38,922 nucleotides of DNA from Kribbella turkmenica (GTDB lineage: Bacteria > Actinomycetota > Actinomycetes > Propionibacteriales > Kribbellaceae). The notes beneath the pieces are model-generated. The model was not told the DNA's origin and made no database searches. It saw only the letters and a program-made list of their open reading frames with translations. The DNA lies in NCBI RefSeq assembly GCF_004348725.1, contig NZ_SMKR01000056.1, forward strand, positions 1 through 38,922, read 5' to 3'. Shown here piece after piece: positions 486 to 15,345 of the stretch (positions within the stretch are counted from its first letter, which is position 1; each line of letters starts with the position of its first letter). The translations under genes and the position numbers were made by a program.

Positions 486-1501
486 GCCGAGACCAGGCCG
501 ACCGGGTCCTTTCCGGCCAAATACGCGGCGACCGCCTCGGCGGCGATCGAGCCGGCCCGCAGGGCGGTCTGCCTGGTCGCGCCGGCCAGGTGCGGCGTCA
601 TCACCACGTTGGGGGCCGTCAGCAACCGTGCACCGGCCGGGACCGGCTCGGACGGGAACACGTCGAACGCGGCCGCACCGAGCTGACCGGACTCCAGCGC
701 GTCCACGGTCGCGTCGTAGTCGAGCAGCCCACCGCGAGCGGTGTTCACCAGTACGGCGCCACGTCGCATCAGCGCGATCTGGTCGGCGCCGATCATGCCG
801 CGGGTCTGGTCGGTCAGCCGGGCGTGCAGGCTGACCACGTCCGACCGCCGCAGCAGGTCGTCCAGCGCGACCAGCTCGATCCCGTCGGTGGCCTCGTCGA
901 CGAACGGATCCGCGACCAGCACCTCGGCGCCGAAGGCGAGCATCACCCGGGCGACGCGTTGCCCGATCGCGCCGTACCCGACGAGGCCGACCGTCGACCC
1001 GTCCAACTCCAGGCCGCACTCGTCGTACGCGTAGAGGTCGCTGCGCCACTCCCCCTGCTCCAGCGTGCGCTGCAGCCGGGGAAGGTTGCGCAGGGCACCC
1101 ATCATCAGCGCGACCGCGTGTTCGGCGGCGGCGACGGCGTTCCGTCCCGGGGTCGACGCGACGACGACGCCACGCTTGATCGCCGCGGGCACGTTCACGT
1201 TCACCGGGCCACCGCGGCAGACGACCAGCAACTTCAGGTCGGGCGCCGCGTCCAGCACGCGCTCGGTGAACGGCCCCATCTGGGTGACCGCGATCTCGAT
1301 CCCGGGCAGCGCCTCGATCAACTGGTCCTCGGCGTCGCTCGCCTCGTCCACCTCGGCCACCCGCCCGTACGGCGTCAGCGGCCACGGCAGCGAGACTTCG
1401 CGGAAGTCGAAGCTGACCTCGTCGAGGGCGGACAAAGCCGTGGCGAGCAGTTCGTTGCGCACAAAGTGGTCACCGGCGAGCAATGTCTTGACGGTTCTCA
1501 T
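482..1501 (-). CDS. D-isomer-specific 2-hydroxyacid dehydrogenase (SerA/hydroxypyruvate-reductase-like)
   Basis: This is a 339-residue NAD(P)-dependent oxidoreductase of the D-2-hydroxyacid dehydrogenase family, the usual length for single-domain-pair members without an ACT domain. The Rossmann motif GYGAIG is at 175-180. The catalytic triad is visible as Arg256 (NTARGG), Glu285 (FPSEP) and His304 (PHLAGAT). The ATG at 1501 overlaps the stop of the upstream kinase (ATGA), and longer upstream frames only read through that kinase gene. It is the last intact gene of the five-gene operon. The family oxidises or reduces short hydroxyacids such as glycerate, 3-phosphoglycerate or erythronate phosphates. 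With two sugar kinases in the operon, a phosphorylated sugar acid or a hydroxypyruvate-like intermediate is a reasonable but unproven substrate. Confidence 0.9.
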   Translation of the reverse strand: MRTVKTLLAGDHFVRNELLATALSALDEVSFDFREVSLPWPLTPYGRVAEVDEASDAEDQLIEALPGIEIAVTQMGPFTERVLDAAPDLKLLVVCRGGPVNVNVPAAIKRGVVVASTPGRNAVAAAEHAVALMMGALRNLPRLQRTLEQGEWRSDLYAYDECGLELDGSTVGLVGYGAIGQRVARVMLAFGAEVLVADPFVDEATDGIELVALDDLLRRSDVVSLHARLTDQTRGMIGADQIALMRRGAVLVNTARGGLLDYDATVDALESGQLGAAAFDVFPSEPVPAGARLLTAPNVVMTPHLAGATRQTALRAGSIAAEAVAAYLAGKDPVGLVSA

Positions 1502-2961
1502 CGAACTCCTGATGGAAAGGTGGGCGCTGGGTCGGACCAGCGTGGGCGCGCTGCCTCGATCCGGCGCAGGTAGTGGTCGTAGCCCTCGGCGTAGAAGGCG
1601 GCGCGCGCCGGATCCGGATCGACCCGACGTGTCTCCGCGATCCACTCCGGCCCGGCACCGTCCGGGTCGGCCGCGCGCCGCGCGCAGATCACCGCACCGC
1701 GAGCGGCGACCTGCTCGGCCTCGGCCGTGTGCAGCGGCGCGTTCAGCACGTCCGCGAGAATCTGCGTCCACTCCGTACTGCGCGCACCACCGCCGCAGAC
1801 CGTGACGCGGCCGGACCAGCCGGCCGCCTCGAGACAGTGGCGAGCGGCGTACGCGATCCCTTCACAGGTCGCGCGGACCAGGTCGGCCGTGGTGGTCGAC
1901 AGCGAGATCCCGTCGATGGTTCCGCGGGCCCGGGTGTCGACGAACGGCGCGCGCTCACCGGCTTCGGACAAGTAGGGAAGAACAGTCACACCCTGCGCGC
2001 CGACCGGACTCTCCGCGAGCAACGACGGCAACTGATCCGTGCCGACGCCGACCAGCGCGAGGACTCGGTCCAGCGCGGCCGTGCCGACCATCGCGGGCAT
2101 CGCCCGCAGCCAGACACCCGGCGTCCACGTGCCGAGGAACAGGCCCGCCGGCTCACCGTCCACGGGCAGCTCCCGGGTGACGACCTGGCACGCGAGCGTC
2201 GTACCGACGGTCAGGAGGGCGTCGCCCGCTTCTTCGACGCCGGCGCCGGCAGCTGCGGCCGGGAGGTCGTACGGGCCGGCGGAGACCCTGGTGCCACGGG
2301 CCATTCCGGTCGAGTCGTCGCGAAGCTCCCCGACCGGGCCGGTGGGTTCGACCGGAGCCAGCAGGTGCTTGAGCTCCGAGAGGCCGGTCGCCTTCAGCGC
2401 CTCGTCGTCGTACCGGTTCGTCCGCGGATCGAGGAACGGCGCGGACGCATCCGACACGTCCGTCGCCCGGACGCCGGTGAGCGCCTGCATCACCACGTCC
2501 TTGCAGTACGCCGCCGTGCCCGCCCGAGCGATCACATCCGGCTCCTCCGTGAGTACGGCGGCCAGCAACGGACCGGACGCGCCGGGGAACATCCGGTTGC
2601 CGGATCGGCGGAACACGCGTTCGGCGACACCGTCGGTGGTCCAGCGCTCCAGGATCGTGCTGCTGCGGGCGTCCAGCCAGGAGATCGCCGGGCGGACCGC
2701 CGTACCGTCCGGATCGAGCAGCCAGAGGCCGTCCCCCTGGGCGGTGATCGCCAGGACGCCGGGCCGGTCGCTCACCGCGCCGGCCAGCTCACCGACCACC
2801 TCGTTGACCGAGGCAATGATCTCGGCGGTCTCGTGCTCGAACCGGCCGGTCCCGGGCCGGACCAGCCTGGTCGGCCGGGACGCCTCGGCGATCGGCCGGC
2901 CCGCGTCGTCGAACGCGACCGCCTTGGTCACAGTGGTCCCGACGTCTACTCCGACGTCCAT
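1498..2961 (-). CDS. FGGY-family carbohydrate kinase (second kinase of operon)
   Basis: This 487-residue sugar kinase of the FGGY family (xylulokinase/erythritol-kinase/gluconokinase fold) transfers the ATP gamma-phosphate to a polyol or ketose. The N-terminal phosphate-1 motif is GVDVGTTVTKA, the substrate-side motif is SWLDARS, and the second-domain phosphate-2 motif lies in GDALLTVGTTLA, followed by a glycine-rich VCGGGARSTEW adenosine loop. I chose the ATG at 2961 because it is preceded by a strong GGAGGGGG ribosome-binding site at about 2967-2974. A start five codons further upstream would fall within the hairpin. The gene follows deoR after a large hairpin and overlaps the dehydrogenase by four bases. 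The substrate cannot be read from sequence. It is clearly diverged from the other kinase of the operon, so the two probably act on different compounds. Confidence 0.9.
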   Translation of the reverse strand: MDVGVDVGTTVTKAVAFDDAGRPIAEASRPTRLVRPGTGRFEHETAEIIASVNEVVGELAGAVSDRPGVLAITAQGDGLWLLDPDGTAVRPAISWLDARSSTILERWTTDGVAERVFRRSGNRMFPGASGPLLAAVLTEEPDVIARAGTAAYCKDVVMQALTGVRATDVSDASAPFLDPRTNRYDDEALKATGLSELKHLLAPVEPTGPVGELRDDSTGMARGTRVSAGPYDLPAAAAGAGVEEAGDALLTVGTTLACQVVTRELPVDGEPAGLFLGTWTPGVWLRAMPAMVGTAALDRVLALVGVGTDQLPSLLAESPVGAQGVTVLPYLSEAGERAPFVDTRARGTIDGISLSTTTADLVRATCEGIAYAARHCLEAAGWSGRVTVCGGGARSTEWTQILADVLNAPLHTAEAEQVAARGAVICARRAADPDGAGPEWIAETRRVDPDPARAAFYAEGYDHYLRRIEAARPRWSDPAPTFPSGVR

Positions 2962-2974
2962 GCGGTCCCCCTCC

Positions 2975-3038
2975 AATGCTCCAGCTCAGGTGTCCTTCGG
3001 GCCCCGCAAGGGCCGAAGGGCACCTGGACTGGAGCATT
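2975..3038. repeat. 64-base imperfect palindrome (large intra-operon hairpin)
   Basis: The left arm (2975-3003) pairs with the right arm (3010-3038). The outer ten base pairs are perfect (AATGCTCCAG with CTGGAGCATT). After two mismatched positions come CAGGTG with CACCTG and CCTTCGG with CCGAAGG, with a loop of about six bases. Only a few of 29 stem positions fail to pair. The right arm touches the stop codon of deoR, and the left arm ends just before the ribosome-binding site of the second kinase. There is no T run, so a classical intrinsic terminator is not shown. It may be an attenuator, an RNA-processing or stabilising hairpin that uncouples the two halves of the operon, or a dispersed palindromic repeat that inserted here. 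Confidence 0.85.
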
Positions 3039-3838
3039 CATAGTTTGGCGACCTCCACGGTCGCGCCGTGGTCGCGCAGCGGCTGGATCAGGTCGTCCGG
3101 GGTCTTCTCGTCGACCACGACGACGTCGAAGTCGGTCAGCGGCGCGAGCCGGTGGAGCGCCGTCCGCTGCAGTTTGGCGTGGTCGACGAGCAGGACCTTG
3201 GTCTTCGCCGACCGCAGCATCGCCCGCTTCACCAGGACGATCTCCTCCTCCTGGTGGTAGGCGTGCGCCGGCGACACCGCGGACACCGAGCAGAACAGCA
3301 GGTCGGTATGCAGCGCCTCGACGGCCTCCGCACACGGCATCCCGCCGAACGAGTCGTGGGTCGCGGAATAGATTCCGCCGAGCGCGAGCAGGGTGATGTC
3401 CCGCAGCGCGGTCAGCTTGGTGATGGCCGGCAGGAAGTTCGTTGCCACGGTCAACGGCATGATGCCCTCGAACAGGTCGACCAGAGCGAGCGCGCTGGTG
3501 GAGTCGTCGAGCATCACCGACATCCCGGGCTCGATCATCGCGCGGGCGTGCCGGGCCAGCGCGGCCTTCTCGGTCTGCGCGGTGTTCAGCCGGTACGCGA
3601 CGTTGCTCTCGAACACGCTGGTCGGCTGCGCGCTGACGCCGCCGCGGTACTTGCGCACCACGCCCTGCCGCTCGAGCTCGTCCAGGTCGCGGTGCACCGT
3701 CATCACGCTCACCCCGAACGCCTCGACCAGATCGTTGGCCGAGACCGAGCCGTGCTCGACGACGTAGGCCGCGATCTCGGCCTGCCGGCGGGCGGGACGA
3801 CTCAGTTCGGTGGTGTCACCGTCGACGTCGGATGTCAT
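3038..3838 (-). CDS. DeoR/GlpR-family transcriptional regulator
   Basis: This is a 266-residue sugar-phosphate-responsive repressor. The N-terminal winged helix-turn-helix spans about residues 15-70 and includes the DeoR signature around VMTVHRDLDELERQGVVRK and then YRGGV. The C-terminal sugar-phosphate-isomerase-like sensor domain shows DDSTSALALVDLF, VATNFLPAI and LALGGI, then TDLLFCSVSAV. The start at 3838 overlaps the phosphatase stop (ATGA). Members of this family usually repress their own catabolic operon and are released by a phosphorylated intermediate. Its position inside the operon, together with a perfect GTTATC/GATAAC repeat in front of the first gene, makes it the likely local regulator. 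Confidence 0.93.
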   Translation of the reverse strand: MTSDVDGDTTELSRPARRQAEIAAYVVEHGSVSANDLVEAFGVSVMTVHRDLDELERQGVVRKYRGGVSAQPTSVFESNVAYRLNTAQTEKAALARHARAMIEPGMSVMLDDSTSALALVDLFEGIMPLTVATNFLPAITKLTALRDITLLALGGIYSATHDSFGGMPCAEAVEALHTDLLFCSVSAVSPAHAYHQEEEIVLVKRAMLRSAKTKVLLVDHAKLQRTALHRLAPLTDFDVVVVDEKTPDDLIQPLRDHGATVEVAKL

Positions 3839-4452
3839 GCCAGGGTCTCCATTCGGACTGCGGGAACGTTGTACGCCTCGAGACCCACTGTGCCGTCCTG
3901 CAGGCGGAAACGCACCAACGCCGCGGGACCGAGAGCCGGTAGCAGTCTGCGGTAGTCGTTCAGGCGTAGTCCGAGCACCCGGCAGGTGAGCAGCCGGATG
4001 AGGGTGTTGTGCGCGACCACGAGCACTTTCTGTCCCTGGTGCGACCGGCCGATCTCGGTGAAGACCTCGTGCACCCGATCGGCCGCCTCGGCCGGATTCT
4101 CACCTCCCGGGAAGTGGTCGCGCACCGGGTCCACCTGGAAGGCCTTGGCGACCGCCGGCGGAAGCTCGCTGAGCATCTTGCCCTCGGCCGAACCGAAGTC
4201 CACCTCGCGCAGCCGCGCGTCGAGCGTCGGCTCCAGACCGACCGCGGCCGCGGCCGGCGCGATCGTCTGCCGGGCTCGCAGCATCGGCGAGCACCACAAC
4301 GCGTCGGGCGCGTCCCCGGCGGCCCACTGCTCCAATTGCTGCGCCTGCTGAACGCCGACCTCGTCGATCGGCAGGTCCGTCGAGCCGGTGTAGCGGTTGC
4401 CGTGGTGCCACTCGGTCCGGCCGTGCCGGGCGAGCACGATCGTCGTCCTCAT
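3835..4452 (-). CDS. Histidine phosphatase family protein (phosphoglycerate-mutase-like)
   Basis: This 205-residue member of the histidine phosphatase superfamily carries the catalytic RHG motif at the N-terminus (LARHGRTEW, His10), the phosphate-contacting arginine in MLRARQT, the proton-donor region LREVDFGSAEG, and the second histidine in VVAHNTLIR (AHN where AHG or SHG is commoner). The family includes phosphoglycerate mutases, sugar phosphatases and alpha-ribazole phosphatase. The gene overlaps both neighbours by four bases, so it is translated with the first kinase and the regulator. A role as sugar-phosphate phosphatase, limiting or completing the kinase pathway, is inferred. A true cofactor-dependent mutase is less likely at this length and in this context. 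Confidence 0.9.
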   Translation of the reverse strand: MRTTIVLARHGRTEWHHGNRYTGSTDLPIDEVGVQQAQQLEQWAAGDAPDALWCSPMLRARQTIAPAAAAVGLEPTLDARLREVDFGSAEGKMLSELPPAVAKAFQVDPVRDHFPGGENPAEAADRVHEVFTEIGRSHQGQKVLVVAHNTLIRLLTCRVLGLRLNDYRRLLPALGPAALVRFRLQDGTVGLEAYNVPAVRMETLA

Positions 4453-5786
4453 CCGCGGTACCCCCGGCGATCCAGCTCGGCCACGAACTCGCCGTACAAC
4501 TCGTCGAGAGTGTGCGGTCGCGGTTCGAGGACGCGCTCGGTGCGCACCATCCGGCGCGCCGTTGCGGTGAGCGAACCGCCGGCCGACGCCGCCAGCACGG
4601 CCATGCCGTACGCCGGGTCCGGAGCGGCCGGCAGCTCGACAGGTACGCCGAGGACGTCGGCGCGGAGCTGGTTCCAGTAGCCGCTGCGGACCGCACCGCC
4701 GGTGAGCGACACGGATCGGACCGGGTCGGCGCCGAGGCTGACCAGGTGCTCGAAGGCGAGTCGCTCGATGAAGGCCACACCTTGTAGTACCGCGACGTAT
4801 GTCCCCAAGTCACCGCCCGGGTTGCCGAGGGTGAAACGCTCGGCCTGCGGCGCCACGAACGGGAACCGCTCACCGGGCTTGGTCAGCGGGTAGATGACGG
4901 CGTCGACCGGCCCGGCCGCCTTGTCCAGCGCGTCCAGATCGGCACCGGGCAACAGTTCGGTGAGTACGCCGGCGCCGGTGCTCGACGCGCCGCCGGGAAG
5001 CCAGCCGCCGTCGGGATGCCGGTGGCTGTAGACCGCGCCGGTGGGGTCGTCGAGGAGGTCGACACTCACGCCTTTGACGACGAGCGTCGTACCGAGGACG
5101 GAGTTCCAGGAACCCGGGGCGAGCGCGCCGGCGGCGATCTGGGCGGCGCAGCCGTCGGTCATCCCGGCTCGAACCGGGACACCCTCGGGGGTGCGGCCGA
5201 GCTCGGCTCCGGGGAGGACGACGTCCGGGAAGAGGCTCGCCGGCAGGCCGAGCTGGTCGAACGCGGCCTGCGGCCAAGCGCCGGCGACGAGGTCGTAGCC
5301 GGTCTTGAGGGCGTGGCTGGTGTCGGTCGCGACCGGGTGGCCGACGAGGTGCGCGGCGACGAAGTCGGCGCTGTGCACGATCCGGTGCCGTTCCGTCGGC
5401 TTCAGCGAGCGGAGCTTGGGCAGCGCCCAGGTGGGCTGCATCGCGGTCGACCAGCGATCCGGGTCGGCGTCCACGATGTGGTCACGCTGGTCGGCCGCAC
5501 GGGCGTCGTCGTACATCAGTGCCGAGGTGACCGGGCGTCCCCGCTCGTCGGTCAGCAGGAAGGTGCCGGAGGTGGAGCAGATCGAGACACCCTCGACGGC
5601 TGGTCCGGCGATGTCCGCCAGAACGGCGTCGACCGCGTCCAGCCAGCTCTGCGGATCCTGCTCGTGGCGCGGACCGTCACGATGGCTGACGAGCGGCCGG
5701 GTGGCCCGGGCCAGCACGGTGCCGCCGGCGTCGACGAGGACGGCACGGACGCTCTGCGTGCCGAGGTCTACGCCGATCCAGCCCAC
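4449..5786 (-). CDS. FGGY-family carbohydrate kinase (first gene of operon)
   Basis: This 445-residue sugar kinase is slightly short for the FGGY family. The phosphate-1 motif GVDLGTQSVRAVLVD lies at the N-terminus, MYDDARA is the substrate-side motif, and MTDGCAAQIAAGAL carries the likely catalytic aspartate. The second ATPase motif is NSVLGTTLVVKG, and TGGAVRSGYW is the adenosine loop. Translation starts at a GTG (5784-5786) with the ribosome-binding sequence GGGGAG at about 5794-5799. It is the promoter-proximal gene, with an inverted-repeat operator 18 bases upstream. Its closest look is to xylulokinase-like enzymes, but no substrate is assigned. Confidence 0.9.
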   Translation of the reverse strand: MGWIGVDLGTQSVRAVLVDAGGTVLARATRPLVSHRDGPRHEQDPQSWLDAVDAVLADIAGPAVEGVSICSTSGTFLLTDERGRPVTSALMYDDARAADQRDHIVDADPDRWSTAMQPTWALPKLRSLKPTERHRIVHSADFVAAHLVGHPVATDTSHALKTGYDLVAGAWPQAAFDQLGLPASLFPDVVLPGAELGRTPEGVPVRAGMTDGCAAQIAAGALAPGSWNSVLGTTLVVKGVSVDLLDDPTGAVYSHRHPDGGWLPGGASSTGAGVLTELLPGADLDALDKAAGPVDAVIYPLTKPGERFPFVAPQAERFTLGNPGGDLGTYVAVLQGVAFIERLAFEHLVSLGADPVRSVSLTGGAVRSGYWNQLRADVLGVPVELPAAPDPAYGMAVLAASAGGSLTATARRMVRTERVLEPRPHTLDELYGEFVAELDRRGYRG

Positions 5787-11620: not shown

Positions 11621-14600
11621 CCACCTGACGCCTCCAGGGTCACCGGGCCGAGGAGGCCTGAGGTTTTCTGGCCTGGGAAGACGAAGTGGGTGGGGCTGGT
11701 GGCGTCCAGGTGGGGGGCGGCGGTGTTGAAGACTTCTACGGTCAGGTGGTGGTCACCGGCGGCGAGGGCGGACAGGTCGTAGGTGTAGGGAGAGCAGAAG
11801 CGGGTGCCGATGGAGGTGCCGTCGACGAGGACTTCGGCGGTGCCTCGGACTCTGCCCAGGTCGAGGAGACGGTGGTCGGCGGCCGGGAGGTGAAGTCGCC
11901 GGATGTAGCGGACGCCACCGGAGTACTCGGACAGGCCCAGCGTTTCCCAGTCGCCCAGCGGGATGCGGCCGGGGCCGACGGTGGCTCGGATCGGGTCGGT
12001 GAGCGCGGCGCCGACTTCGTGGCCGGGCGTGGTCATCACGGTGAGGTAGCCGGTCCTGGCGCCGGCGGGTACGTCGGCGGTCAGCATGCCTGAGCCAATG
12101 GCGAGTTGTTGGCCGTCGACGGTGAGGACGGCCTCGGCGGTCAGGGCGAGCTCCAGGTGCGTTGTGCCTGGGGGCAGGTCGAAGCGGAGGTGTTCGATGC
12201 GCTCGGGTGCCGGCCGGGGGACGGCGAACGTGACCGACTCGACCACGGTGGTGTCGGTGCCGTCGAGCCAGGCCGCGGCCGGGAGTGGATGCGGGCGGCG
12301 GGTCAGATAGAGGTCGGCCATCGCGCGGTGCCACGGGCGTCGCCTGAACGTCGGGACAGTGGCGCCGTCGACCGTGGCTTTCCAGTCGTGGTCGGAGATC
12401 ACCAGGCCGTCGACCAGGATCGGCGTCGGCCGCGTCACCTCCACCACGATCGTGTTCTCGACATCGGGTCGCAGCGCGGCGGCCGCGTCGTACCGGCGTA
12501 CCCGTGGCGTCGAGCGCTCGTACGGCATGAAGCCGCCCTGCCGACCCACCTCGACGTTGTTCACGTACAGCCGGGCCGACCCCCACGCGGTCAGCGTGAG
12601 CTCGGCCTGATCCCCGGGTACGACGGTCGTCGTGTAGCGGATCGCGGTCCCCGAGCCCGCTGAGGCGACCGCGATCCATTCCGGCCGGCGGTACGACGCC
12701 AGGTCGCGGACGAACGCGACGTTCGCCCGGAGCTCCAGCCGCTCCGACGGGGTCAACCGCAGTTCGAGGTGGTGCGTGCCTGCGGCGAGCGTCACCGGAA
12801 CCGATCCGAAGTACCCGCCGTCATCGGCGATCGGCAGAGACTCACCGTCGATCAGCAACTCCTTGGCCGCCGGCGCACCCACGACCACCGTGCTGGACAA
12901 GGCGGTCTCGAGCGAGAAGGCGGCCGTGAACGTCACCGTCTGGCCGGCGCCGACCGAGCCGAAGTCCAGGAAGTCCTCCGGCACGTGTCCCTTCGGGCCG
13001 AGGGCGTGCTGGTGAATGTGATCCTTGCGGATGCCCCGGGAGTCGGAGTACTCGAAGACCTCACCGTCGATCAGCCCGTGCGGCCCGAACGTCGCATGCG
13101 CCGGGCGCCACGCGTCCGACCCGTCGACGCGATGCTCGAGCGCCCACCGCTCGACCACGACGTCCGCACCGGGATCGGCCGCAGGCCAGGCGAAGTCGCC
13201 CCAGGTGTTGTCCAGCGTCGGGATCAGTTCGACGTCCCAGTCACCGGTCAGATTGTCGACGATCTGACGGCGCTCAGCGAGCTCGTTCACATTTTCGTTG
13301 CCCTGGGCAAACACCACCAGCGCGGCCGGACCGTGGTCGAACGGAACGACGACCTCGCCGTCCTCGAAGGCCAGCGGCTTCTCCGACCCGTCGAACGGCG
13401 AGACCAGTACCGGCGGACCGGGCGCGTCCCGGACCCGCAACCGCACCTCGTCCCGGTATCGCGACGGATCGAACGAGTACCCCACCCGGGCCCACTCGTG
13501 ACTGATCCCCCGCCCGACCGGCTCACCGTCGATGACAGTCGCGCTCCACTCGGTCGGCGTGACGAACACGACCAGCGCGTCGTCGACCTCCCGCGTCAGC
13601 ACCGGTACGTCCGCCTCGACCCGCCGCTCGACACCAGCCAACGCCGCCGGAACCGCCGACGACGAATCGACCACGACCGCACCCGGGAGTCCCACGGGTG
13701 CAACGCCAACCGCCACGACCACCCCACCGGCAGCGATGAAGTCCGCCAGCCGCGACGCCACCGCGCTCTCGAGTGCCGTTGCCGCAGGCAGCACTATGGC
13801 CGCGTACGACTCCGAGGCGACCGACAACCGGGGCCCGGCCACCACCGACGCCGCCGCCAGCGAGTCGTCGTCGATCACGTCCGCGTCGATCCGCGCCCGG
13901 TCCAGCACCCCCGGCACCGGAGCGAACCAGGTGGCGTCCCCGACCAACTCCCGGTAGACCTCCTGAGCCCGCGAACCCTCCGGACCAGGGCCCAGAAGCG
14001 TCAGATCTGCCTGCGCCGTCGCATTCGGGAACAGTACGGCGACCTCGCACACGTGCCGTCCCAGCGACAACGACGCGCACAACCGCGTGACCGCATCGGC
14101 GAAGTACTTGTGATGGCGCCAGTACGGCTGCCGCCAGTCGGTCGACGGCGGCGCCCACTCCCACCAGCCGGCCCGGGTCGTGTAGTACACGGCATGCGGG
14201 TTGTACAACGTCGCCCCGGTCCGCAGCCACGGCAGGAGCCAGTCGAACGTCTCCTCCAACGTCCCACCCCACCCGGTGGAGTGGAACGCCTCGATCCAGG
14301 TTCGCGGACGGCCGTAGAGGTGCGCCAGCGACGAGTGGATCCGTGCATCCCCGTGATGGTCCGATCCCGGTGCACTGAACCATCGGTGGGTCCGGGCGTA
14401 GTCGGCGTACAACTCGACGCCGTCGACCGGCAGGCCGGCCCGCGCCGGGTCCTGCTGGTCACAGCCGACGATCAGTCCGTGCTTCTCGTGCCACGCGTGC
14501 AACGGGCGGAAGAACGCCTCCTCCGCCAGCGACGCCCGCAGCGCGTGATAGTTCCGGCGTACCCGAGCCCCATCCGGTACCCCGGTGTCCCACAACGCCG

Positions 14601-15345
14601 AGAGCCGGTCGCGGAGGTCGTACCCGTACCGCGCTTCGAATCGCTCGGCGAAGTCGGCCGACCAGGTGGGCACCGACGGCAGCTCATCCTGGAACGACCC
14701 GACGACGACCGCGCCGAGCCGGTCGCCCAGCCGGCGTTCGAACTCGCCGTGCACCTGGTCGAGCAACGCCGTACAGGCGGCAGGGCTCAGGTAGTCGAAA
14801 CCGTGGTCCGTCTCGTAGAACAACGACAGCTCCGACGGCACGGTTGCTTCGCACGACGCTCCGGCACCATCCATGACCACCTCAGCCACAGGCTCGACGG
14901 CCGCGGAGATCACCCGGCCGCCCGCAGGGCACCGCACCGACAGCCGACCGGTCCCGCTCACCGTCTGCCGCTGCAACCGCCGGCCCGCAAAGGCCGGCTG
15001 ACGAGCCACCAACCGAGCCTGGATGTCCGCTCCCGAGAACCCCAACTGGTCGTAGAACCACAGCGAGATCCCGAGCGCGGCCGCGTCGTCACAGACCCCG
15101 AGAAAGATCTCCCACCACCGCTCGGAGAAGAACGGCGGATCGTCCGCGTCGCATCCATGGTCCGACCCCGCCGGCGCCAGGTTCAGGACGACGAGTTGGT
15201 ACACGCCCCCTTCGGCGAAGCGTTCCAACTGCCAGCGCAGCCGGGCCGGATCGAGCGGTTCGCCGCTCCACCACCAGATGAGCGCGGGTGAGTAGGCCCT
15301 GGGCGGATCGCTGAGGACCGACGCCAGGCGGGCGGGAAGTGCCAC
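11614..15345 (-). CDS. Large GH106-like glycoside hydrolase (alpha-L-rhamnosidase-like), cytoplasmic
   Basis: This 1243-residue protein has no signal peptide. The N-terminal catalytic region has the layout of the GH106-like superfamily: PALIWWWSGEPLD, a helix pair, WFYDQLGFSGAD (96-107), the acidic FQDELPS (218-224), and later EAFHSTGWGGTLEETFDW followed by TGATLYNPHAVYYTT. From about residue 750 to the end there are beta-sandwich domains typical of family-2-type sugar-binding modules (GTHHLELRL, YVNNVEVG, GYLTVMTTPGHEVG, GTAEVLVDGTSIG). The gene sits three bases downstream of the second ABC permease, so its substrate probably enters through that importer and is cut inside the cell. Alpha-L-rhamnosidase activity is the family's best-known function, but many relatives are untested. 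It ends at TAG, overlapping the GH43 gene by seven bases. Confidence 0.8.
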   Translation of the reverse strand: MALPARLASVLSDPPRAYSPALIWWWSGEPLDPARLRWQLERFAEGGVYQLVVLNLAPAGSDHGCDADDPPFFSERWWEIFLGVCDDAAALGISLWFYDQLGFSGADIQARLVARQPAFAGRRLQRQTVSGTGRLSVRCPAGGRVISAAVEPVAEVVMDGAGASCEATVPSELSLFYETDHGFDYLSPAACTALLDQVHGEFERRLGDRLGAVVVGSFQDELPSVPTWSADFAERFEARYGYDLRDRLSALWDTGVPDGARVRRNYHALRASLAEEAFFRPLHAWHEKHGLIVGCDQQDPARAGLPVDGVELYADYARTHRWFSAPGSDHHGDARIHSSLAHLYGRPRTWIEAFHSTGWGGTLEETFDWLLPWLRTGATLYNPHAVYYTTRAGWWEWAPPSTDWRQPYWRHHKYFADAVTRLCASLSLGRHVCEVAVLFPNATAQADLTLLGPGPEGSRAQEVYRELVGDATWFAPVPGVLDRARIDADVIDDDSLAAASVVAGPRLSVASESYAAIVLPAATALESAVASRLADFIAAGGVVVAVGVAPVGLPGAVVVDSSSAVPAALAGVERRVEADVPVLTREVDDALVVFVTPTEWSATVIDGEPVGRGISHEWARVGYSFDPSRYRDEVRLRVRDAPGPPVLVSPFDGSEKPLAFEDGEVVVPFDHGPAALVVFAQGNENVNELAERRQIVDNLTGDWDVELIPTLDNTWGDFAWPAADPGADVVVERWALEHRVDGSDAWRPAHATFGPHGLIDGEVFEYSDSRGIRKDHIHQHALGPKGHVPEDFLDFGSVGAGQTVTFTAAFSLETALSSTVVVGAPAAKELLIDGESLPIADDGGYFGSVPVTLAAGTHHLELRLTPSERLELRANVAFVRDLASYRRPEWIAVASAGSGTAIRYTTTVVPGDQAELTLTAWGSARLYVNNVEVGRQGGFMPYERSTPRVRRYDAAAALRPDVENTIVVEVTRPTPILVDGLVISDHDWKATVDGATVPTFRRRPWHRAMADLYLTRRPHPLPAAAWLDGTDTTVVESVTFAVPRPAPERIEHLRFDLPPGTTHLELALTAEAVLTVDGQQLAIGSGMLTADVPAGARTGYLTVMTTPGHEVGAALTDPIRATVGPGRIPLGDWETLGLSEYSGGVRYIRRLHLPAADHRLLDLGRVRGTAEVLVDGTSIGTRFCSPYTYDLSALAAGDHHLTVEVFNTAAPHLDATSPTHFVFPGQKTSGLLGPVTLEASGGQ

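Follow-up and report, generated by a model that had tools for sequence, protein, structure and literature searches.

The 64-nt hairpin that separates deoR from the second FGGY kinase gene in a tight gene row of Kribbella turkmenica is very probably the collapsed form of a palindromic, MITE-like element that occurs in Kribbella alone among the genomes searched, and not a conserved control element of the operon. This reading is drawn from comparison of sequences, in particular of a longer member of the same family that occupies the same junction in a related genome (G009), and it supports the suggestion of an earlier note on this DNA that the palindrome could be a mobile repeat. The window (the whole stretch of DNA that was analysed, 38,922 nt) is contig C303 of genome G000 (351 contigs, 7.4 Mb).

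The hairpin and its gene row

The minus strand of the window carries a tight row of genes for an FGGY kinase (kinase 1), a histidine phosphatase, a DeoR regulator, a second FGGY kinase (kinase 2) and a D-2-hydroxyacid dehydrogenase (Table 1). Kinase 1 and the histidine phosphatase gene (PGAM) overlap by four bases (4449–4452), as do PGAM and deoR (3835–3838), and the earlier description of a hairpin that splits an otherwise overlapping operon holds. The near-perfect palindrome of 64 bases that had been reported between deoR and kinase 2 was confirmed by an inverted-repeat search and an RNA fold (2975–3038), and its reported extent, from the deoR stop to the kinase ribosome-binding site, is exact to the base. 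Its 29-nt arms (2975–3003 and 3010–3038) are ungapped, 86% complementary and spaced by 6 nt, and the fold of 2965–3048 reaches −51.6 kcal/mol against a shuffle mean of −29.1 (z −6.68), and none of 200 shuffles matched it. The first base of the stem is the last base of the deoR stop TGA (3040–3038, minus strand), and on the same strand the hairpin is followed by the Shine-Dalgarno sequence GGAGGGGG (2974–2967) and the ATG of kinase 2 at 2961. A U-rich tract after the stem is absent on both sides (minus strand, GGAGGGGGACCGC; plus strand, CATAGTTTGGCG), and no Rfam family reached its gathering score in the window.

Table 1. Features of the hairpin and the surrounding gene row in the window
Feature	Position	Strand	Basis
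Hairpin; probably a palindromic MITE-like element reduced by a large deletion of its interior	2975..3038	-	Fold, inverted repeat, alignment to G009 element
Putative element 5' end remnant, including deoR stop; variable outer arm and start of core	3000..3041	-	34/41 identical to G009 stretch
Putative element 3' end remnant	2975..2999	-	24/25 identical to G009 stretch
Putative site of the internal deletion (some 100 nt absent compared with G009), placed to within a few bases	2999..3000		Alignment and BLAST
Shine-Dalgarno sequence GGAGGGGG of kinase 2, directly 3' of hairpin	2967..2974	-	Sequence
First FGGY carbohydrate kinase	4449..5786	-	
Histidine phosphatase (phosphoglycerate mutase-like, PGAM)	3835..4452	-	
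DeoR-family regulator (HTH_DeoR and DeoRC); TGA stop shares one base with hairpin	3038..3838	-	
Second FGGY carbohydrate kinase	1498..2961	-	
D-2-hydroxyacid dehydrogenase, downstream end of row; boundaries approximate	488..1501	-	

When 438,922 bases of G000 (20 stretches of 20 kb and the window) were scanned for stems by a simple method, the hairpin came third in stem strength among the 53 hairpins scoring at least 12. It was also the strongest among 154 co-directional junctions, a count that comes from a crude gene caller and misses at least one stronger junction (L061); all gene callers used here were composition-based scripts of this kind, and counts from them are rough. The junction at L061 (positions 14544–14612, contig C5 of the same genome) holds a 69-nt hairpin of 30 pairs that beats the window hairpin in the stem scan and is flanked by two minus-strand genes.

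The deoR/kinase 2 junction in relatives

A close deoR orthologue (best E < 1e-140) is present in 33 of the 36 same-genus relatives searched, those without being G003, G028 and G036, and these 33 together with the window form a set of 34 junctions. The deoR stop directly abuts the kinase Shine-Dalgarno in 21 of the 34, and 15 of these direct-contact junctions share the bare sequence CTCTAGGAGG. Palindromes stand at seven junctions (G000, G017, G033, G009, G006, G013 and G007), an 8-nt scrap at one (G019; CTC-TAATGCTC-TAG) and other spacers at five (G023, G026, G027, G030 and G034). As judged from these junctions, the junction stem is not conserved across the Kribbella orthologues, which the earlier note had named among the outcomes that would speak against its proposal. 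When the same 64 bases were searched against 38 Kribbella genomes (E ≤ 1), junction matches besides the window itself came only from G009, G006 and G017; the remaining matches, at E 0.02 or worse, were taken for chance.

The palindromes of G000, G017, G009, G006 and G013 have alike arms (CTATGAAYGCTNCA...), and those of G033 and G007 differ from them, so that at least two or three separate insertions can be counted at this one junction. The operon tree does not group the alike hairpins together; G000 and G017 (with G033) stand beside the bare G008 and G020 (support 93%), G006 and G009 beside the bare G001 and G010 (100%) and G013 beside the bare G012 (100%), a distribution that counts against the collapsed-element reading. 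By our reading it takes a single gain followed by about eight losses, or else three gains or transfers, and an exact return to the bare site could come about through slippage between the TA repeats. Short-tract recombination of the junction between species was rejected as an explanation: in 60-nt windows, identity was not clearly raised between hairpin bearers of different clades in the pairs compared, a result that leaves room for very short tracts.

Of 80 named loci, nine that lie outside the genus have a kinase no more than 100 nt away from the deoR stop. Unrelated palindromes stand right at that stop, before the kinase, in two Phytoactinopolyspora loci (L100 and L114) and perhaps also in one from Jiangella (L103).

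A dispersed palindromic family in Kribbella

The G009 junction holds a stretch of 172 nt, a longer member of the family at the same site as the window hairpin. In a comparison of 200-kb slices of sister species, G012 proved to have an insertion of 166 nt whose ends match and whose centre resembles that of the G009 insert. Matches to the 172-nt stretch at E ≤ 0.01 occur in all 38 Kribbella genomes (about 22 candidates scored per genome, the per-genome counts being lower bounds). At E ≤ 1e-5, with five candidates scored per genome, matches were found in 38 of the 147 genomes sampled from the order; these 38 are all Kribbella, and the 109 others gave none. In an alignment of 29 copies, one per genome and including that of G009, the core has a mean column identity of 87%, and each copy folds end to end into one long hairpin. 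A wider set of 46 distinct copies combines the 29 aligned ones with 20 taken from five genomes and a single G000 copy, duplicates being removed. In a set of 46 copies that leaves out the G009 one, the outermost paired bases are 156–172 nt apart. By these matches, the element is a dispersed, palindromic, MITE-like family, present in Kribbella alone among the genomes searched; it is short, dispersed in many copies and, judged by length alone, non-coding. No earlier description of a Kribbella palindromic family was found in the literature searched, which covered Kribbella palindromes and MITEs and wider work on repeats and transposons.

Model matches, with both strands counted and 150 candidates scored per genome, numbered at least 30 in G009, at least 9 in G013, at least 29 in G011 and at least 58 in G028. 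Full-length copies in G000 itself are few at the same depth (a strong copy on C177, E 3.6e-19; a weaker one on C20, E 1.1e-5; a doubtful one on C313, E 0.40), and the density of matches to the covariance model R1 at E < 1e-6 is low (three in 800 kb of four relatives and one in 400 kb of G000); both observations count against reading the window hairpin as a collapsed element.

One 20-nt end type recurs in 12 of the 38 genomes. It borders elements of 165–167 nt as well as hairpins both shorter (39, 46 and 95 nt) and longer (up to 457 nt); scraps of about 22–31 nt also occur. The sharing of this end type with the short hairpins indicates that collapse into short stems happens elsewhere too. A near-complete palindrome of 431 nt on contig 50 of G025 (L339:1090–1520; −365 kcal/mol with short flanks) has an element-type end and a different interior, further large hairpins with element-type ends are found at L318 (267 nt) and L320 (457 nt), and just inside the 20-nt end all three have a shared motif close to TTCG...AAGT. 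These features suggest that the larger hairpins are another element class that shares its ends with the small element. Additionally, matches at many places in G025 (query 178–266, 75–78% identity) suggest a second subfamily of the element core, diverged and rich in copies.

The family was exposed by one palindromic insertion among those of 15–300 nt that were compared between sister species. Stems of at least nine were weakly enriched among such insertions (4 of 51 and 3 of 63, against 0.019 and 0.030 of random segments) and stems of at least seven showed no enrichment (9 of 51 and 12 of 63, against 0.18 and 0.18).

Variable arms around a conserved core

The outer 20-nt arms of the element form terminal inverted repeats that are on average 95.7% complementary within a copy (minimum, 85%; 46 copies). 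Between copies the same arms are 49.9% identical, and arms crossed between copies are 49.5% complementary, compared with 76.6% identity between copies for a 30-nt piece of the core; some of the 46 copies are close kin (e.g., five from G015) and are thus not independent. Each arm position occurs as three or four Watson-Crick pair types, position 19 is non-Watson-Crick in 17 of the 46 copies, and by eye the outermost bases, GTGYCC, are more constant than the rest of the arm. It is possible, and is offered here tentatively, that the element is a mobile palindrome with reversed conservation, in which the internal hairpin core is kept, mismatches included, and the terminal arms are rewritten in each copy yet stay self-complementary. 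As part of the same tentative proposal, the element would aim at CTAG, often at the TAG stops of genes, and the hairpins that it seeds would shrink to terminator-like stems.

Probable insertion at CTAG

Many copies read CTA or TTA-[GTGYCC...GGRCAC]-TAG. In the set without the G009 copy, TA occurs no more than 3 nt from the left end in 25 of 46 copies and from the right end in 23, with 17 having it at both ends, and the frequency of TA in a random 6-mer of G000 is 0.056. Since TA pairs with TA, its presence at both ends could belong to the matching arms of the element. A clean empty/filled pair is provided by G013 (...CACTAGTCC...) and G012 (...CAC-TA-[element]-TA-GTCC...), where the insertion stands at an apparent TAG stop and TA is duplicated; TA is likewise duplicated in the G007 junction (CTC-TA-[ATGCCCCGCGGGGCAC]-TA-GGAGG) relative to the bare junctions. 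A target site duplication is therefore seen in one clean pair and one junction, and the two together support duplication of TA inside CTAG.

No TA duplication is readable on either side of the window hairpin, which counts against reading it as a collapsed element. For one G015 copy no clean empty site was found, its flanks being present in several of seven genomes and never adjacent, and the site for one G006/G001 copy is unclean. According to crude gene calls, a stop codon lies within the element end in 8 of 29 copies, including the deoR one (left distance −2 or −3, or right −7), and two of the 29 (L231 and L244) seem to lie inside a predicted gene. In a 400-kb sample of G000 (L057–L076), CTAG occurs 0.247 times per kb against the 2.82 expected from base composition, an approximately elevenfold depletion.

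Duplication of TA in CTAG fits the IS630/Tc1 superfamily, and IS630 prefers CTAG. Among five genomes searched, transposases with DDE_3 (PF13358) gave one match each in G000, G015 and G025 and none in G009 or G028, both of which have many copies of the element. Ends matching the element were not found in the retrieved flanks of the three DDE_3 loci. This search thus gave no IS630 partner and no autonomous element with these ends, which counts against the collapsed-element reading.

Probable derivation of the window hairpin from the longer element

In a global alignment to the G009 stretch, the window hairpin corresponds to 41 bases on the left and 25 on the right of one gap of about 100 nt, with 8 mismatches in the 66 aligned positions, and is derivable by one internal deletion at the same site. 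BLAST against G009 returns two pieces (E 6.6e-10 and 2.6e-5) with 99 nt between them. The G006 hairpin aligns globally as the G009 stretch with one internal deletion of about 129 nt. In G017 the hairpin keeps the ends of the element and has an interior that does not align cleanly, which counts against the collapse of a common element. The 20-nt core signature CTTCGGCGCTTGCGGCGCCC matches 2999–3018 of the window (minus strand) with two mismatches, the next best site on either strand having five. The covariance model R1 ranks the hairpin first in the window at a score that is not significant (15.4 bits, E 0.16). The first rank speaks for membership in the family and the lack of significance against it; a weak score is expected of a copy that has lost most of the core, and this result by itself proves nothing.

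The earlier note had advised a search of the genome for the outer arm. Neither BLAST nor an 18-nt arm pattern found a second copy of the palindrome in its own genome beyond chance (15 pattern matches, namely the two arms themselves and 13 others, all with three mismatches, against 26 for a reversed control), and the repeat family that the search was meant to reveal was reached instead by way of the longer G009 junction element. The arm search gave a false negative, since the outer arm sequence varies between copies of this family.

In the history proposed here, the element would have been moved in trans by a transposase recognising it and, as the TA duplications support less firmly, would have entered the CTAG formed by the last codon of deoR and a TAG stop (CTC TAG GAGG) with duplication of TA, an entry by which the stop codon and the kinase ribosome-binding site both survived. 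The internal deletion may then have arisen by slippage or template switching on the palindrome. In most relatives the deoR stop and the kinase start are immediate neighbours; the resulting hairpin would keep them apart, adding some 64 nt to the distance between them, and the fold brings the two together again. At most, the 64-nt stem, once transcribed, would act weakly as a U-less terminator or would impede exonucleases working from the 3' end.

Function and alternative explanations

The hairpin might be a selected attenuator or mRNA-processing site that sets the ratio of kinase 1, PGAM and deoR to kinase 2 and the dehydrogenase, a role that had been raised for it before. A very stable stem does stand exactly between the deoR stop and the Shine-Dalgarno sequence, and palindromes of other sequence occupy the same junction in G033, G007 and two Phytoactinopolyspora loci. 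In G000, stems scoring at least 11 occur in 9 of 22 convergent gaps (20–199 nt) against 9 of 67 co-directional ones (crude gene calls), a clustering between convergent genes that would fit U-less terminators. In the cited accounts, U-poor stems mark transcript ends in Streptomyces (PMC8269248, PMC12207403), with 353 structured, U-poor ends in Streptomyces clavuligerus (PMC8269248), and a repeat within an operon can bring about attenuation, stabilisation or cleavage (PMC3049150), so that an effect of the hairpin on kinase 2 is plausible. As a present, selected function, however, attenuation is unlikely: the stem is missing from most orthologues examined, which speaks against a need for it, the junction palindromes vary freely in size and sequence, neither side of the stem has a U-tract, and a mobile origin explains the hairpin without selection. 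The setting of a ratio between the two halves of the operon is thus not supported as a conserved function. An attenuator function is compatible with a mobile origin, and any effect of the hairpin on the operon is probably incidental.

It is highly improbable that the palindrome was made in place by a template-switch mutation without any mobile element. Such a mutation can create perfect stems in one step, as described in the cited work (PMC8794818), and the near-perfect palindrome of G013 looks like a corrected stem, but the G009 insert belongs to a genus-wide dispersed family and no local donor beats shuffles for the inserts of G000, G017, G033, G009, G006, G013 and G007. Local origin through duplicated flanking sequence was rejected for these seven palindromic inserts, which were equalled by 0.48–1.0 of 100 shuffles; among the nine inserts tested, only the G030 spacer gave a low value (0.02). 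Template switching may have reshaped the relic. In a further alternative, the copies would be genes for a structured RNA whose functional part is the conserved core, closed by a stem of variable but paired arms. This reading would account for a core conserved at many unpaired positions and for arms that covary, and is highly improbable given that TA insertion at CTAG and the deletion relics indicate mobility, that the window copy lacks most of the core and that the Rfam gathering score was reached neither in the window nor in six loci with copies (three sub-threshold microRNA matches in the six, E 0.045 or worse).

Comparison with known systems

The RUP element of Streptococcus pneumoniae, a MITE related to IS630-Spn1, resembles the Kribbella element in being dispersed, small, non-coding, self-folding and inserted at TA; according to the cited descriptions, RUP is AT-rich and its ends resemble a resident IS (PMC2229807, PMC3049150), whereas the Kribbella element is GC-rich, has variable ends and a better conserved core, and no IS partner was found for it. 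Correia/NEMIS and ERIC repeats share with it a size below 200 bp, TA termini, a long RNA stem and a location inside transcribed regions (PMC2229807, PMC3049150); variable self-matching arms do not figure in the parts of these sources drawn on here, and the comparison is one of descriptions, not of sequences. REP/BIME sequences are likewise described as palindromic and extragenic and can lie in operons, where BIMEs can attenuate downstream genes (PMC3049150), but REPs are given as 20–40 bp with a tag at one end (PMC3733652), in contrast to about 165 nt and insertion at TA/CTAG in the Kribbella element. The U-less (I-shaped) terminators described for high-GC actinobacteria have, like the window hairpin, a stable GC-rich stem without a U-tract at a gene end (PMC8269248, PMC12207403); the window hairpin differs in that it lies within a compact operon at 13 nt from the following start codon and probably derives from a mobile element.

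Implications

Searches with an outer arm miss families such as the Kribbella palindromic element. The combination of a conserved core with self-matching, variable ends is unusual and raises the testable question of how the element moves and repairs its ends. Should the tentative proposal of reversed conservation be true, the arms would be copied from each other during or after movement, in a fold-back, hairpin-templated step, and the moving machinery would recognise the folded core and not fixed terminal repeats. For the genus, the junction indicates that operon-internal hairpins can appear and change among its species when a mobile palindrome enters a TAG stop and the gene stays closed, and that such a palindrome may decay into a clean stem resembling a purpose-built regulator.
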